Assembly: GCF_003008515.1 (NCBI RefSeq)
Contig: NZ_CP027668.1
Span: forward strand, 2,038,001 to 2,102,000
DNA: 64,000 nucleotides
Origin: Phreatobacter cathodiphilus
GTDB taxonomy: Bacteria > Pseudomonadota > Alphaproteobacteria > Rhizobiales > Phreatobacteraceae
Direction: 5' to 3'
Within the stretch, counting starts at the first letter, position 1. Every line of letters starts with the position of its first letter. The notes under the pieces were generated by a model, which worked only from the letters and a program-made list of their open reading frames with translations, did not search any database and was not told the origin of the DNA. Shown here one piece after another: positions 25,583 to 32,073 of this stretch. Made by a program: the position numbers and the translations under genes.

Positions 25583-27138
25583 GGCGCGGCGAGGTCGGGA
25601 ACCCCCGGCGCCACCGGCTCGCGCACCAGGAAGAGCACCAGCCGGTCCATCCGGTCCGTCAGGCCGAAGCGCGGCCGCCAGAGCCGGTCCACCGCCCCTG
25701 CCGGCTCCACGACGCGGTAGTGCCGCCCGAGCCGCGCGGCGACCTCCGCCTCGCGGCGGCTCTCGACCGCGACGAGCACCGGCCGCGCGGCGATGGTGGC
25801 GGTGTCGGGCTCCGGCTCCATGGCATAGCGCAGCCGCTCGCCAAGCTGGACCACCGGCGGCCGGCCGGACCCGTAGAAGCGCAGATGCGCCGTCGTCGTG
25901 TAGCTGGCCGTGCCGATCGTCCCCGCCCCGGTCCGCTCCGCCACGGCCTCAACCGCCGCCGCCGCGGCCCGCCAGCCATGGAGCTGCCCGGTAGGGTCGA
26001 TGGCGAGCGGCGCCAGCCGGAACGCCGCGTGGCCGAGGACGAAGAGACCGAGGGCCACGCCGGTCACCACCGACCAGCGCAGGCTCGCCCTGACCACGGC
26101 TGCCATGGCGGGCGCGGCCGGCAGGGCCTTGGCGCCCATCACGGCAGCGGCGACGGAGGCCGGCAGCAGGCAGGCGGTCCAGTTGCCCTGCACCCGGTCG
26201 AACAGCGCGTACCAGAGGAGATAGGCGAGCAGCGGCAGCACCGAGACGGTGACCAGTACCGCGCCCGGCTCGCGCTGACCCAGGGTTCGCCGCGCCGCTA
26301 CCCAGAGCCCCCAGAGCACCACGATCCCGACCAGCGGCGTCAGCAGCGCCGCCTGCCCGGCGACGAATTCCGGCACGAAGCGCGGATCGAAGGCCTTCGG
26401 CACGGCGCGGCCGAACTGCTTGGTGAGCGAGGCGCCGCCATGGGCGACGTTCCACCACAGCACCGGCGCCATCACCAGGAGACAGAGCACGCCGCCCGCA
26501 TAGGGCCAGGGCGAGCGCAGCCAGCGCCGAAGCTCCGGCACCAGCACGATCCACAGGAGGATGGCGAGGCCGAGGAAGACGGCGGTGTATTTGGAGACGA
26601 AGGCGAGGCCGACCGACAGGCCGGCGGCGAGCCACCAGGCTCCCTTCCCCGTCCGCCACACCTCCACCAGCGCCAGCAGCGCGAGCGTCCAGAACAGCAC
26701 CAGCGGCGTGTCCGGCGTCACCAGGACCGCGCCGGCGCCGAGGAACAGGGTCGCCTGCACCATGCCTGCCCCGGCGATCGCCGCGGCGCGATCGTCGGTG
26801 AGCCGCCACACCAGCCGCCAGACGCCGAGGCTCGCCGCCGCCCCGAGCAGCACCGAGAGCCAGCGAATGCCGAATTCGCCGTCGCCGAAAACGGCGGTGG
26901 AGGCGCGGATCAGCACCGCCACCATCGGCGGGTGGTCGAAATAGCCGAAGGCGAGGTTCTTCGACCAGATCCAGTAATAGGCCTCGTCGGCGGCGAGGCC
27001 GAGCGATCCCGCCGCCCACAGGCGGATCGCGGTCAAGGCCGCGACCAGAACCAGGACGGCACCCGCGCTCCCCGCCCAGACAGGGCGCAGGGCCGGCGCC
27101 ACGTCAGCGCCGCCAGACGAGGGCGGAGGAAGCGGCAT
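25576..27138 (-). CDS. glycosyltransferase family 39 (ArnT/PMT-like) membrane enzyme
   Basis: A 520-residue membrane glycosyltransferase. The first loop after TM1 has LAADEAYYWIWSKNLAFGYFDHPPMVA, with the acidic pair (DE) of GT39/GT83 enzymes such as ArnT. About ten hydrophobic segments follow, with TPDTPLVLFW, LSVGLAFVSKYTAVFLGLAILLW and a soluble tail from about residue 400. Such enzymes move a sugar from a lipid carrier to lipid A, protein or polymer. The ATG at 27138 overlaps the GT2 gene end by 35 bp; a GTG at 27102 is the alternative. It is last in the bta run. Confidence 0.82.
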   Translation of the reverse strand: MPLPPPSSGGADVAPALRPVWAGSAGAVLVLVAALTAIRLWAAGSLGLAADEAYYWIWSKNLAFGYFDHPPMVAVLIRASTAVFGDGEFGIRWLSVLLGAAASLGVWRLVWRLTDDRAAAIAGAGMVQATLFLGAGAVLVTPDTPLVLFWTLALLALVEVWRTGKGAWWLAAGLSVGLAFVSKYTAVFLGLAILLWIVLVPELRRWLRSPWPYAGGVLCLLVMAPVLWWNVAHGGASLTKQFGRAVPKAFDPRFVPEFVAGQAALLTPLVGIVVLWGLWVAARRTLGQREPGAVLVTVSVLPLLAYLLWYALFDRVQGNWTACLLPASVAAAVMGAKALPAAPAMAAVVRASLRWSVVTGVALGLFVLGHAAFRLAPLAIDPTGQLHGWRAAAAAVEAVAERTGAGTIGTASYTTTAHLRFYGSGRPPVVQLGERLRYAMEPEPDTATIAARPVLVAVESRREAEVAARLGRHYRVVEPAGAVDRLWRPRFGLTDRMDRLVLFLVREPVAPGVPDLAAPQ

Positions 27139-28207
27139 AGTTGAAGACCGCGCCCATGACGGCGCCGGCGAGGCCGGACAGCCACCAGTCGACGTCGCCG
27201 GCATAGAGCCAGCTCGCCACGCCCACATTGCCGAAGGCGCCGATGCTGCAGACGAGATAGAAGAGCACGAGCCCGGTCAGGAAGCGCCCGCCCTTCAGCC
27301 GCGCGTCGCGATAGGTGATCTCGTTGTTGATGACGAAATTCGACGTCATGGCGACATAGGTCGCCAGCGTCTGCGCCCATTCGAAGCGCAGGTCGAGCGT
27401 CAGCCCGGCATAGAGCACCGCCAGATGAACGAGCAGGCCGCTCGTCCCCACCAGCGCGAAGAAGATGAAGCGCAGCGGGATGATGCCGCCCGACAGCTTG
27501 TTGAGAACGAAGCCGACATAGTCGAGCGCCACCTTCGCATCGAGCTTGCTCTCGCCGTGGATGCGCTCGCGGAAGACGAAGGGCACCTCGGCGAGGCGCG
27601 GGGCCCGGGGCACCGAGGCGGCGATGTCGGCCAGAATCTTGAAGCCGGTGGTGGAGAGGCGCGGCGCCACCTCCTCGACGATGTCGCGGCGGATCATGAA
27701 GAAGCCGGACATGGGGTCGGAGAGCGGCGCCTTGAGGATCATCGACGACAGACGCCGCCCGAGGTCCGAAATGCCCTGGCGGATCGGCGTCAGGCCCTCG
27801 GTCTTCGATCCGCCGGCGATGTTGCGGCTGGCGACGACGAGGTCATGGCCGGCGCGGATCTGCTCCAGCATGGCCGGCAGAATCGTCTCGTCATGCTGCA
27901 GGTCGCCGTCCATGACGGCGACGACCGGCGCGGAGGAAGCGAGCATCCCCTCGATGCAGGCCCCGGCGAGACCCCGCCGCCCCACCCGGCGGATGCAGCG
28001 CACGCGGGGATCACGGCGGGAAATCTCCTTGACCACGGCCGCCGTTCCGTCCGGGCTGTCGTCGTCGACGACGATCATCTCCCAGGCGATGCCGGCGAGC
28101 ACGCCGTCGAGGCGTCGCGCCAGTTCCGGCACGTTCTCGCGTTCGTTGTAGCTGGGCACGACCACCGTCAGTTCGGGGGCGCCGGCGGTGGGGATGTCCT
28201 GGGTCAT
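27104..28207 (-). CDS. GT2 polyprenol-phosphate glycosyltransferase fused to GtrA-like domain
   Basis: A 367-residue protein. Residues 1-230 are a dolichol-phosphate-mannose-synthase-like GT2 domain: LTVVVPSYNERENVPEL, MIVVDDDSPDGTA, AVMDGDLQHDE and SDPMSGFFMIRRD. Residues 235-367 hold four membrane segments of the GtrA type, with RFIFFALVGTSGLLVHL and SNFVINNEITYRD. It probably loads a sugar onto undecaprenyl phosphate and flips it for the GT39 enzyme encoded next. It lies 35 bp after btaB in the same direction, so it may be under the same promoter. Confidence 0.88.
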   Translation of the reverse strand: MTQDIPTAGAPELTVVVPSYNERENVPELARRLDGVLAGIAWEMIVVDDDSPDGTAAVVKEISRRDPRVRCIRRVGRRGLAGACIEGMLASSAPVVAVMDGDLQHDETILPAMLEQIRAGHDLVVASRNIAGGSKTEGLTPIRQGISDLGRRLSSMILKAPLSDPMSGFFMIRRDIVEEVAPRLSTTGFKILADIAASVPRAPRLAEVPFVFRERIHGESKLDAKVALDYVGFVLNKLSGGIIPLRFIFFALVGTSGLLVHLAVLYAGLTLDLRFEWAQTLATYVAMTSNFVINNEITYRDARLKGGRFLTGLVLFYLVCSIGAFGNVGVASWLYAGDVDWWLSGLAGAVMGAVFNYAASSALVWRR

Positions 28208-28242
28208 TGGGCCGGGGTCATAGACCCCGCCCGCCGACGGGG

Positions 28243-28914
28243 TCAAGCAAGGGCAGGACGTGTCGCAACGGCATGGACCGCGTAGTCGCGGTAAGGCCGT
28301 TCCAGTCGCAGGGCGCAGCCCTCCGTCGCCGCCAGGGCCGCGAGGGTCTCGGCGACGCCGTCCCGCGGCGTCACGTGGAACTGCGCCAGCCAGGCGCGCA
28401 GGCCCAAGCGGAACAGGGCGGGCAATTGCCCCTGCCCGCCGAAATCCACCACGTGGAGCGAACCGCCGGGCAGGACTGCCGCCATGGCCCGCCCGAGGGC
28501 CTCCTGCCAGGGCGGAATCATCGACAGCGTGTAGGAGCAGAACACCCGGTCGAAACCGTCACGGGCGAAACAGGTGAGCGGATCGAACCCGGCGGCGTCC
28601 GCCCGGGCGAGGCGGATGCGGTCGGCGAGCCCCGCGCGAGCGACGGCGCGGCGGGCTTCCGCCAGCATGACCGGGCTGACGTCGAAGCCGTAGAAGCGCG
28701 CTTGCGGGTAGCGCCGCGCCGCCACGACGAGGTTGCGACCCGTGCCGCAGCCGACCTCCAGCACGGTGCCCCCGGCGGGCGGCGCGAGCTCGTCGATCAG
28801 GCGGTCGCGGCCGAGCAGGTAGAACTTGCGCGTGGCGTCATAGATGCCGACCTGCCAGCGGTAGATGGCGTCCATCCTCTCCGCGGCGGGAAACACGTCC
28901 GTCGGGGCGGTCAC
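28243..28914 (-). CDS. btaB: BtaB-like S-adenosylmethionine N-methyltransferase (betaine lipid synthesis)
   Basis: A 223-residue class I methyltransferase. MDAIYRWQVGIYDATRKFYLLGRDRLI near the N-terminus is the BtaB signature, followed by the SAM loop LEVGCGTGRNL (motif I) and FDVSPVMLAEARRA (motif II). BtaB trimethylates the product of BtaA to give the betaine lipid DGTS. The start overlaps the end of btaA by 4 bp. A general methyltransferase is the alternative, but linkage to a DUF3419 gene makes BtaB the strong call. Confidence 0.88.
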   Translation of the reverse strand: MTAPTDVFPAAERMDAIYRWQVGIYDATRKFYLLGRDRLIDELAPPAGGTVLEVGCGTGRNLVVAARRYPQARFYGFDVSPVMLAEARRAVARAGLADRIRLARADAAGFDPLTCFARDGFDRVFCSYTLSMIPPWQEALGRAMAAVLPGGSLHVVDFGGQGQLPALFRLGLRAWLAQFHVTPRDGVAETLAALAATEGCALRLERPYRDYAVHAVATRPALA

Positions 28915-30170
28915 GGCGCGGCCAGGGTGTAGAGGTGGAAGCCGCCGTAGATCGACGAGCGGTCGCGCTCCGTCCAGGCGCGGCAGCGCTCCGCGTCATA
29001 GGTGAAGCGCGCCAGGATCCCCGGCGAGAGGCGGCCGGGCAGCAGGCTCTCCTCCGCCGCCGTCCGGAAGATGACGCGGGCGCCGGGCCTGGCGGTGCGC
29101 AGGATCGCCGCCCAGAGCCGGTTCAGCACCGCGTCCGTCATCCAGTCCTGCGCGTCGAGCAGCACATAGGCGTCGCGGGAGGCCGGCGGCAGGCTCTCCA
29201 GATGGTCGATGAAATTCTCGTGACGCACCTCGACACGGCCGGCACGGGACCGCACCGTGTCGAAATGGCCGGCCGCGAGATAGGGCGGCACGGCGCCCGC
29301 CGCACCCTGATAGCGCCGGCCGAAGGCCTGCCAGGCGAAGTAGTTGCTCTCCAGCGGGAAGCCGCAGGCGAGACGTTCGAGGCGTGCCACCAGCACCTCC
29401 TCCATCCCGCCGCCCGCCTTCGCCGAGGTCAGCAGCGCCTGATACTGGGCCGGCGGAATGCCGAGCCCGTAGAGCGAGGCGGGGTTCTTCACCAGCCAGC
29501 GCACCAGCGGCGAGGCGAAGAGCGGCTTCAGCTCCGCGTCAAAGATGGCGCGCTGGTCGGCGAGCGAGCGCGCTTCCAGCATGCGGCGGGGATCGCGGCC
29601 GTGCAGCCGCGCGACCGCATGGCCGGTGCCGATCATCCAGCCGAGCAGGCCCTTGCGGTAGATGTTGTCGGAAAACTGCCGGATGCGCCGCCGCCCGGCC
29701 CAGTCGCGCCGCTCCCAGTAGGCGCGCGTCGCCGGATCGAGCCGGTCGCGCAGATGGAGGTCGTAGGCGGCGATATTGGCGCGGTTGTCGGCCCGGCCGA
29801 AGAAGCGGAAGAAGCTGTCGTGGTCGGGCAGGTGGAGGGCCGCGGCGAGCTTCAGCCGGTTCAGCGCCACGTGATGGGCGTTGAGGTCGACGGCGGTGAT
29901 CGCGGCAGGGCCGGCGACGAGATAGCTGAGGACGTTGCAGCCACCGGAGGCGATGGCCACCACGTGATCCGCGGGGCCGAGCGCCAGCGCCTCCATGTCG
30001 ATCTCCGGATCCTCCCAGATCTGCGGATAGACGAGGCCGGAGAACATCAGCGTGAAGAGTTGCTCCTGCAGTCCCGCCCGCGACAGCGGCCGGTGGCGGG
30101 CGACGGCCCGCCCGATATTGCGCTGGGTCGCCTTGCGCGCCTCGCCTGCCGCCAGAGTCATGCCGTTCAT
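28911..30170 (-). CDS. btaA: BtaA-like SAM:diacylglycerol 3-amino-3-carboxypropyltransferase (DUF3419)
   Basis: A 419-residue DUF3419 protein. LQEQLFTLMFSGLVYPQIWEDPEIDMEAL near residue 35, VAIASGGCNVLSYL, AVDLNAHHVALNRLKLAA and YVLLDAQDWM match BtaA of Rhodobacter sphaeroides. BtaA moves the aminocarboxypropyl group of SAM to diacylglycerol, the first step to DGTS, which replaces phospholipids when phosphate is short. It is first in the unit btaA-btaB-GT2-GT39. A double Pho-box-like array lies 40-79 bp ahead of the start. Confidence 0.9.
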   Translation of the reverse strand: MNGMTLAAGEARKATQRNIGRAVARHRPLSRAGLQEQLFTLMFSGLVYPQIWEDPEIDMEALALGPADHVVAIASGGCNVLSYLVAGPAAITAVDLNAHHVALNRLKLAAALHLPDHDSFFRFFGRADNRANIAAYDLHLRDRLDPATRAYWERRDWAGRRRIRQFSDNIYRKGLLGWMIGTGHAVARLHGRDPRRMLEARSLADQRAIFDAELKPLFASPLVRWLVKNPASLYGLGIPPAQYQALLTSAKAGGGMEEVLVARLERLACGFPLESNYFAWQAFGRRYQGAAGAVPPYLAAGHFDTVRSRAGRVEVRHENFIDHLESLPPASRDAYVLLDAQDWMTDAVLNRLWAAILRTARPGARVIFRTAAEESLLPGRLSPGILARFTYDAERCRAWTERDRSSIYGGFHLYTLAAP

Positions 30171-30209
30171 CCCGATTCGGAAGCGTTCGGACCGGGTTAG
30201 GCGGACGGC

Positions 30210-30249
30210 GTGACGCGCCGGTGAAGCAGCGATGACCCCGCGATGACGG
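30210..30249 (-). promoter_or_regulatory. double Pho box upstream of btaA
   Basis: On the minus strand four 7-mers repeat with an exact 11-bp period: CCGTCAT, GGGTCAT, GCTTCAC and GCGTCAC, separated by 4-bp spacers. This is the PhoB layout (CTGTCAY-N4-CTGTCAY), twice in tandem. A TAACCC hexamer 10 bp beyond the last unit (30194-30199) is placed as a -10 would be. The array ends 39 bp before the btaA ATG. Confidence 0.75.
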
Positions 30250-30329
30250 TTCCGCAGGATGATGCGGACAATTGCAGCGATTTCCGTCGGGACGGGTTAA
30301 GGTCAACCGGTAGGGTAAAGATGCGGCTG

Positions 30330-30435
30330 TGATTGTGCTGCACAGCGAATGGTCAGATAGACGGTCCCAACCACTCCGCGTCCACGGAGATGATCATCTG
30401 AAGCCCCGGGCCGGCAACGACCCGGGGATTTTTTT
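30330..30435 (+). ncRNA. candidate small RNA with intrinsic terminator
   Basis: A plus-strand terminator (30404-30435) lies where no plus-strand gene exists. Just upstream are a CTCCG/CGGAG hairpin (30374-30389) and a perfect 12-bp palindrome AGATGATCATCT (30388-30399). Together they look like the structured 3' part of a small RNA of about 100 nt. The 5' end is not defined and the start given here is approximate. No known RNA family was recognised. Confidence 0.45.
30404..30435 (+). terminator. intrinsic terminator of the candidate small RNA
   Basis: CCCCGGG (30404-30410) pairs with CCCGGGG (30421-30427) over a 10-nt loop, followed by A and seven T (30429-30435). It is the longest T-tract terminator in the window. 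In the minus direction the A-run precedes the stem, so it does not serve the convergent gene ending at 30466. Confidence 0.8.
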
Positions 30436-30465
30436 GTCAAAATTACCGCACGGACTTCAGCTTCG

Positions 30466-32073
30466 TTAAGGCGCGGGACGTCCGCCCGCCGCGGCGAGCG
30501 CCTCCGGCGTGTCGAGGTCGAGATGGACGTCGTCCGTCTCGGCCGGCACCTCGGCGACGGCCTCCGGCGCGCCCGCCAGCACCGCCCTGCCGCCCTGGTC
30601 GCCGGTGACCTTCATCAGCTCGGCGAAGAAGCGGCGGCCCCACAGCACGGGATTGCCGCGCCGCCCGCCGGCGACGGGCACGACGACGTGCCGCCCCTCC
30701 CCCGGCGCGAAGGCCGCGGCCAGCCTGCCGACGAGGCCCGAGGAGATGGCCGGCATGTCGCCGAGCAGCACCACGACCCCGTCGATCTCCTCGCCGAGAG
30801 CGGCGATGCCGGCCTTCAGCGAGGTGGAGAGGCCTTCGGGGAAGTCCGGATTATGGGCGAAGCGCACCGGCAGGTCCGCGAGAGCGGCGCGCACGGCCGC
30901 CTCCTGGTGGCCGGTGACCACCAGCACCTCGGCGAGACCGGCCCCGAGGGCCGCCTCGACGGCGTGGCGCACCAGCGGCCTGCCGCCGATCTCGGCCAGG
31001 AGCTTGTTCGGGCCGCCCATGCGGGTCGAGCGGCCCGCCGCCAGCACGACGGCGGCGAGGCGCGGGGCGGGCGGAGCCGCGATCTCACCCTCGCGCGGCT
31101 GCGGACGCGACACGATCTCCATCAGCAGTCCTCCCACCCCCATGCCGGTGACGTCGTGCTTGGTCACCGGCAGGCCGGCCAGCAGGCGCATCAGTACCCA
31201 GTCGAAGCCGTTCTCCTTCGGCGAGCGGGCGCAACCCGGCGCGCCGAGCACCGGGACGCTGCCGAGCGCGCCGACCATCAGCAGGTTCCCGGGGTCCACC
31301 GGCATGCCGAGATGGTCGACCTGTCCCCCCGCCGCCTCCAGCGCCGCCGGAATGACGTCGCGCCGGTCGGCGATGGCGGAAGCGCCGAAGACGAGGACGA
31401 GATCGGCCCCGCCCGCCACCTCGCCGATCGCCGCCGTCAGGGCCGCGGCCTCATGGGGCACGCGCCGCTCGGCGACGATGGCCGCCCCCGCCGGAGCCAG
31501 CCGGTCGGCGGTCACCCGCAGCGTCTTCTCCACCACCTTGTCGGCGAGCCCCGGCAGCAGGGTCGAGACCACCGCGACCCGCCGCCGCACGAAGGGCGCG
31601 ACCCTGACGAGAGGCCCCGCCGCGATCGCCTCCGCCACCCTGTCGCCGGCGACCGCATAGGGGATGATCTTGACGGTCGCCACCATCTCGCCCGCCTCGA
31701 CGGCGGCGAAGGCCGGCAGCGTCGCCAGGGTGATGGCCTCGTCTATGCGGTTGATCCGGTCGATGCCCTCGCGGTCCACCATCAGCACGCCAGCCTCGGC
31801 GGCGAAGAGATTGGCGCGGCCGGTGAACGGCGGATCGATGCGCAGGCCCTCCCCCGCCACCGCGGCGGCGATGCGGCCGGCGGCCTCGTCCTCGCCGATG
31901 TCGCCGGGCTCGGCCAGCGCCACGGTGATGGTCGCGATCCCCGCGGCCTTCAGCGCGGCGATCTCGGCAGCGCCGATCACCGATCCCTTCTTCATGAGGA
32001 GCCCCGGCCGGCGCACCGCATGGGCGACGACGCCGCCGAGGGCCTGCTCGACCGCCAGGGGACCGAAGCGCAT
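30466..32073 (-). CDS. molybdenum cofactor cytidylyltransferase (MoeA/MoCF-like plus MobA-like fusion)
   Basis: A 535-residue two-domain protein. Residues 1-340 resemble a molybdopterin-binding MoeA/MoCF-type domain: LLMKKGSVIGAAEIAAL, then VFGASAIADRRDVIPAAL, MPVDPGNLLMVG and a GCARSPKENGFDW site. Residues 345-535 are a MobA/MocA-like nucleotidyltransferase with the loop LAAGRSTRMGGPNKLL and VVLLGDMPAIS. MocA-type enzymes make molybdopterin cytosine dinucleotide, the cofactor of xanthine-oxidase-family enzymes such as CoxL, encoded upstream in the same run. It begins 34 bp after the xdhC-type gene. Confidence 0.85.
   Translation of the reverse strand: MRFGPLAVEQALGGVVAHAVRRPGLLMKKGSVIGAAEIAALKAAGIATITVALAEPGDIGEDEAAGRIAAAVAGEGLRIDPPFTGRANLFAAEAGVLMVDREGIDRINRIDEAITLATLPAFAAVEAGEMVATVKIIPYAVAGDRVAEAIAAGPLVRVAPFVRRRVAVVSTLLPGLADKVVEKTLRVTADRLAPAGAAIVAERRVPHEAAALTAAIGEVAGGADLVLVFGASAIADRRDVIPAALEAAGGQVDHLGMPVDPGNLLMVGALGSVPVLGAPGCARSPKENGFDWVLMRLLAGLPVTKHDVTGMGVGGLLMEIVSRPQPREGEIAAPPAPRLAAVVLAAGRSTRMGGPNKLLAEIGGRPLVRHAVEAALGAGLAEVLVVTGHQEAAVRAALADLPVRFAHNPDFPEGLSTSLKAGIAALGEEIDGVVVLLGDMPAISSGLVGRLAAAFAPGEGRHVVVPVAGGRRGNPVLWGRRFFAELMKVTGDQGGRAVLAGAPEAVAEVPAETDDVHLDLDTPEALAAAGGRPAP

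Follow-up and report, generated by a model that had tools for sequence, protein, structure and literature searches.

The window analysed here, a 64,000-nucleotide stretch of the Phreatobacter cathodiphilus genome, contains a predicted betaine-lipid operon, btaAB, on its minus strand. The first gene, btaA (28911..30170, -), encodes a protein of the DUF3419 family (Pfam PF11899, 367.8 bits; cut-off 28.2), which we take to be the BtaA family. It is followed by btaB (28243..28914, -), which encodes a SAM methyltransferase (PF13649, 67.5 bits), with an overlap of 4 nt at the btaA stop. Beyond btaB lies a gene for a family 2 glycosyltransferase with a GtrA/DPMS membrane domain (27104..28207, -; PF00535 and PF04138), while on the other side of the operon a candidate small RNA gene (30296..30436, +) is divergent from btaA. 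A double Pho box is predicted ahead of btaA (30210..30249, -). The upstream ATG of btaA, at 30170, is in frame solely by way of a local indel, and alignments with congeners favour the ATG at 30161, which is probably the true start.

The naming of the two genes draws on different kinds of evidence. No NCBIfam model matched BtaA, and the NCBIfam matches to BtaB, among the 25 listed, were to methyltransferases only and all below cut-off; because the family models say just methyltransferase, the name BtaB rests on context. That context is consistent, with a BtaB relative (48-65% identity) found on the same strand directly downstream of btaA in 79/79 other loci, and the initial annotation of the pair as btaAB is upheld by this arrangement together with the Pfam assignment of BtaA to DUF3419. 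The available text of one study gives the role of BtaA as SAM:diacylglycerol 3-amino-3-carboxypropyl transferase (PMC3972451). A search for a solved structure of a BtaA relative returned none at E<=0.01.

The region ahead of btaA contains four heptamers on the btaA strand, namely CCGTCAT (30249-30243, -), GGGTCAT (30238-30232, -), GCTTCAC (30227-30221, -) and GCGTCAC (30216-30210, -), arranged as CCGTCAT-N4-GGGTCAT-N4-GCTTCAC-N4-GCGTCAC with a period of 11 bp. The exactness of this period had been claimed from a first inspection of the sequence, and it was confirmed at 30249-30210. Pho box heptamers have a GTCAY-type consensus, and a Pho box comprises at least two such direct heptamers at an 11-bp period; four units are present here, although single heptamers fall short of the consensus (with GG and GCT starts). 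The array very likely represents two tandem 22-bp Pho boxes, which would be predicted PhoB sites, and the accessible portion of a published description likewise defines the consensus for PhoB by a pair of direct repeats of 11 bp each (PMC3978041). With the 22-bp Pho box of the Escherichia coli type the array shares the GTCAY-type heptamers, the 11-bp period and a distance of 10 nt to what is, here, a -10-like hexamer, but it differs in having two boxes in tandem and in being G/C-rich at heptamer positions 1-2.

The array stands out from its surroundings in several comparisons. A strict four-unit pattern that was derived from the btaA site itself (GTCAY-N6-GTCAY-N6-TTCAY-N6-GTCAY) has a single match in the 4.49-Mb genome, which is that site, and its reversed control has 0. 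When the window was scored with a weight matrix based on the published Pho consensus, the array reached 27.1 bits, by far the highest four-unit score, and the runner-up among independent four-unit sites 12.3. The initial annotation had suggested scoring with a weight matrix; this was carried out using a matrix trained on 98 heptamers in the btaA promoters of other genomes, rather than a published rhizobial matrix, and gave 29.5 for the array and 4.7 for the next independent site in the window. In GC-rich DNA such a repeat might be a chance pattern, and the window does contain other two-unit matches, including one of 14.8 bits inside btaA (29226-29209), as well as four-unit scores of up to 19.9 when other periods (7 to 15) are allowed, the maximum being at period 9. 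However, the array score was unequalled in 80 Markov strands (40 sequences of 64 kb, both strands), where the maximum was 20.1 bits.

Phylogenetic footprinting bears on the same question. Of the 12 genus genomes, 8 carry btaA, and in all eight, one of which is the window's own, the array is conserved in register. Mean pairwise identity among the eight is 0.93 in the TCA cores and 0.48 in the 4-nt spacers, unit positions 3 to 6 have mean identities of 0.87 to 1.00, and conservation along the array follows an 11-bp periodicity. Three members have a degraded third unit, which reads CCTTCGT in two of them and CCTTTGC in one. On the strength of the Markov shuffles and this footprinting a chance origin was rejected, and its probability is close to negligible. 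In the 4/4 members without btaA, the spacer between the small RNA and the start of the glycosyltransferase gene, scanned whole (118 to 242 nt; 175 nt in an earlier scan), contains no comparable array, with best four-unit scores of -5.8 to -20.9. The best two-unit scores in these spacers are 2.4, 10.4, 3.6 and -5.4, and the 10.4-bit match (TTGTCGC-N4-TCTTCAC, in the btaA-less locus L168) is within the chance two-unit range of the window.

The initial annotation also placed a -10-like hexamer at the appropriate distance from the array. The hexamer TAACCC (30199-30194, -) does begin 10 nt past the last heptamer, and a TA motif occurs at this distance in 8/8 of the btaA-bearing genus members; the match to the -10 consensus is weak, however, and a consensus scan of 30150-30500 found no sigma-70 promoter. 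In the phoA promoter of E. coli, the last heptamer is likewise separated from the -10 element by 10 nt.

Pho boxes are also found ahead of btaA in more distant genomes. The comparison used 79 of the 80 loci ranked highest among at least 572 relatives, a sample that leans towards near ones and consists mostly of named alphaproteobacteria; the eightieth, L011, was excluded as lying on the same congener contig as L003. With p calculated for each locus against its own Markov shuffles, a Pho box of two or four units with p<=0.01 was detected in the 150 nt upstream of btaA in 55 of the 79, and the remaining 24 had no significant Pho box in those 150 nt. The same test applied to control sequences gave 8/79 for the antisense strand, 9/79 for reversed sequences, 0/79 inside btaA and 1/79 for the region 300-450 nt upstream, and 51/79 had carried a significant site when 300 nt were tested against coarser shuffles. 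Conservation of the Pho box ahead of the gene, indicating selection, is observed both by footprinting within the genus and at other btaA loci, and the association of a Pho box with btaAB recurs across the 79 further loci examined. As a separate observation, the BtaA nearest to those of the genus (69%), among the 80 loci of that ranking, comes from a metagenome-assembled genome named Telmatospirillum (L012), which hints at either transfer or mis-binning.

The genome encodes the components of a Pho regulon, comprising PhoR-PhoB, Pst and PhoU with Pho boxes ahead, the PhoR-like kinase being below its cut-off. PhoB (342.8 bits), PhoU and PstB are over their respective cut-offs, the PhoR-like kinase scores 307.6 bits under a cut-off of 334.2, and the binding protein, two permeases and ATPase of the Pst system are supported by Pfam. 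The PhoR-like kinase gene, a two-unit Pho box and phoU-phoB follow one another in that order at G000:C1:1377832-1379334, with pst located separately at ~2.50 Mb. A two-unit pattern, which does not itself fit the btaA array, has 16 sites in the genome as opposed to 1 for the reversed control. Proteins encoded downstream of 9/16 of these sites include PhoU (of phoU-phoB), polyphosphate kinase and CorA, along with some that have no evident link to phosphate.

In the 8-kb stretch that contains the pst genes, the best site on the coding strand consists of CTTTCAT and CTGTCAA with an in-phase AGGTCAT, and lies ahead of those genes; a rival site deeper in the stretch scores almost equally (15.6 vs 15.8). 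This predicted array ahead of pst is an in-genome positive control. The sole match to the PstS model, at C1:942784, is located away from the pst operon, and a simple pattern search of 660 nt there found no pair of heptamer-like words at an 11-bp spacing.

Direct repeats like these are also used by other regulators of the OmpR/PhoB family, and the PhoB model has another 15 full-length matches in the genome, none of which reaches the cut-off. It is conceivable on these grounds that the repeats ahead of btaA serve one of those regulators and that btaAB follows a signal other than phosphate. This is very unlikely, given that GTCAY-type heptamers with an 11-bp period also precede phoU-phoB, that a similar three-unit array precedes pst, that Pho boxes are present ahead of btaA in the majority of the other loci described above, and that btaAB of Sinorhizobium meliloti is PhoB-regulated according to the available text of PMC3972451.

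Control of btaAB by PhoB under low phosphate, acting through the double Pho box and the -10-like element, is the preferred reading, with a probability of roughly nine in ten. Phosphate-starvation control had already been proposed in the initial annotation, and the proposal gains support from the footprinting, from the frequency of Pho boxes at other btaA loci (55/79 vs 0-9/79 in controls), from the lack of an array in the members without btaA, and from the presence of PhoB, PhoU, Pst and a PhoR-like kinase in the genome. Under such control, low phosphate would lead two PhoB dimers to bind head to tail on the two adjacent 22-bp Pho boxes (30249-30210). The bound PhoB would replace a -35 element and bring RNA polymerase to the TA-containing -10 element 10 nt downstream, and the resulting transcript would comprise btaA-btaB. 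The products of these genes would then convert diacylglycerol to the phosphorus-free betaine lipid DGTS, and phospholipid phosphate would be spared. Binding of PhoB, induction and lipid production in this organism are all deduced from sequence.

A PhoB-activated btaAB circuit is already documented in Sinorhizobium, and the locus described here is very likely a new example of it. The accessible portions of three reports describe sinorhizobial btaA and btaB as PhoB-regulated, with diacylglycerol supplied by PlcP (PMC3972451), place both genes among the highly induced core phosphate-stress genes of S. meliloti (PMC8829014), and assign btaA-btaB to the Pho regulon along with ppk and the phospholipase SMc00171 (PMC3596328). 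The same two genes are present in the S. meliloti btaAB system, for which regulation by PhoB in low phosphate is reported in the available text of two of these sources (PMC3972451, PMC8829014); in contrast, the predicted circuit here has four heptamers, conserved in 8 btaA-bearing genus members. A search of the available literature found no paper naming Phreatobacter together with betaine lipid or DGTS. The prediction of phosphate-controlled membrane remodelling is extended to one more genus, and the view of how the circuit works stays unchanged.

A candidate for the diacylglycerol-supplying enzyme is encoded elsewhere in the genome. At G000:C1:2461558-2463862, a metallophosphoesterase gene is accompanied by a downstream GT4 glycosyltransferase gene and a divergent methyltransferase gene. 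We take this phosphoesterase to be PlcP-like; by NCBIfam it is LpxH-like, below cut-off. There is no strong Pho box in front of the gene (best 3.4 bits), so diacylglycerol may not be supplied in step with the induction of btaAB, and this gap in the predicted sites argues against a fully co-regulated pathway. In marine bacteria, the available text of PMC4796936 describes plcP-btaAB and plcP-glycosyltransferase clusters with predicted Pho boxes. The present genome resembles those clusters, as far as they are covered there, in its predicted Pho boxes, its lipid remodelling genes and the adjacency of plcP and a glycosyltransferase gene, but differs in the large distance between its plcP-like gene and btaAB and in the lack of a strong Pho box ahead of the former.

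The candidate small RNA between the Pho box and the neighbouring mocA-like gene ends in a GC hairpin with a T-run and is absent from Rfam; nothing reached the gathering score for 30296-30436, and a permissive search gave below-gathering matches only. In alignment, it has a conserved 5' block, a hairpin (ACTCCGCGTCCACGGAG) and the terminator-like GC hairpin with its T-run, the last of which was not listed by a simple terminator scan. Its predicted fold is weakly better than that of shuffled sequences (z -1.62), and covariation is slight, with two-sided changes in 3/24 pairs. When 150 candidates were scored per genome, one model match per genome was obtained in 12/12 genus members, whether or not they carry btaA. 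An order-wide search with stricter filters, in which at most 13 candidates were scored per genome, did not truly find the small RNA beyond the genus among 249 genomes (10 of them from the genus); weak matches in three genomes outside the genus were rejected, as they covered a terminator hairpin only. When the model was run against 52 of the collected loci, the sole match was L099, which is the locus of the congener G001. The idea that the small RNA is obligatorily tied to btaA was rejected, as the RNA is also present in the four btaA-less members. Although a by-product of this analysis, the candidate small RNA is a better prospect for novelty than the Pho box.

The small RNA region starts ~50 nt from the Pho box in the divergent direction, and the glycosyltransferase gene begins only 35 nt past btaB. 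Either arrangement might suggest that the Pho box mainly serves something other than btaAB, whether the small RNA or a longer transcript extending into the glycosyltransferase gene. In the case of the small RNA, the heptamers face btaA, the -10-like element is also on that side, and the small RNA is kept without the array in 4/4 of the btaA-less members. As regards the longer transcript, the glycosyltransferase gene has a promoter-like element of its own, CTTGAC-N18-CTATGA (28218..28247, -), and CTTGAC-N18-CTAT(G/C)A is found beside this gene in 11/12 genus members, with or without btaAB. A main role of the Pho box in serving either neighbour is accordingly unlikely. The -35-like hexamer overlaps the stop of btaB, and in 7/8 of the btaAB-bearing members the TGA of btaB falls within CTTGAC (28242-28247, -, in the window). 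Since the glycosyltransferase gene has its own promoter-like element, the predicted Pho unit probably ends with btaB and the glycosyltransferase probably lies outside it, although read-through from btaB may occur.

A comparison of gene order shows where btaAB is accommodated. The four btaA-less members have the glycosyltransferase gene, the small RNA and a mocA-like gene in that order, while the order with btaAB is glycosyltransferase, btaB, btaA, Pho box, small RNA and mocA-like gene. The latter was seen in full in the window's own genome and in G001; the glycosyltransferase gene is behind btaB in 8/8 members, and a mocA-like fragment adjoins the small RNA in 12/12. It is possible, if doubtful, that btaAB and its own double Pho box form a self-contained block, present or absent at a fixed site in the genus and fitted between the genus-specific small RNA and the glycosyltransferase promoter so closely that the stop of btaB is part of the -35 element of the latter, and that the small RNA could join in envelope or lipid control. 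A tree of the 12 MocA-like fragments implies two changes of btaAB presence, and is compatible with a single change too. Finally, at the btaA-less locus L168, the promoter-like element is absent next to the glycosyltransferase start and the spacer is longer, and this additional length may hold an inserted repeat.
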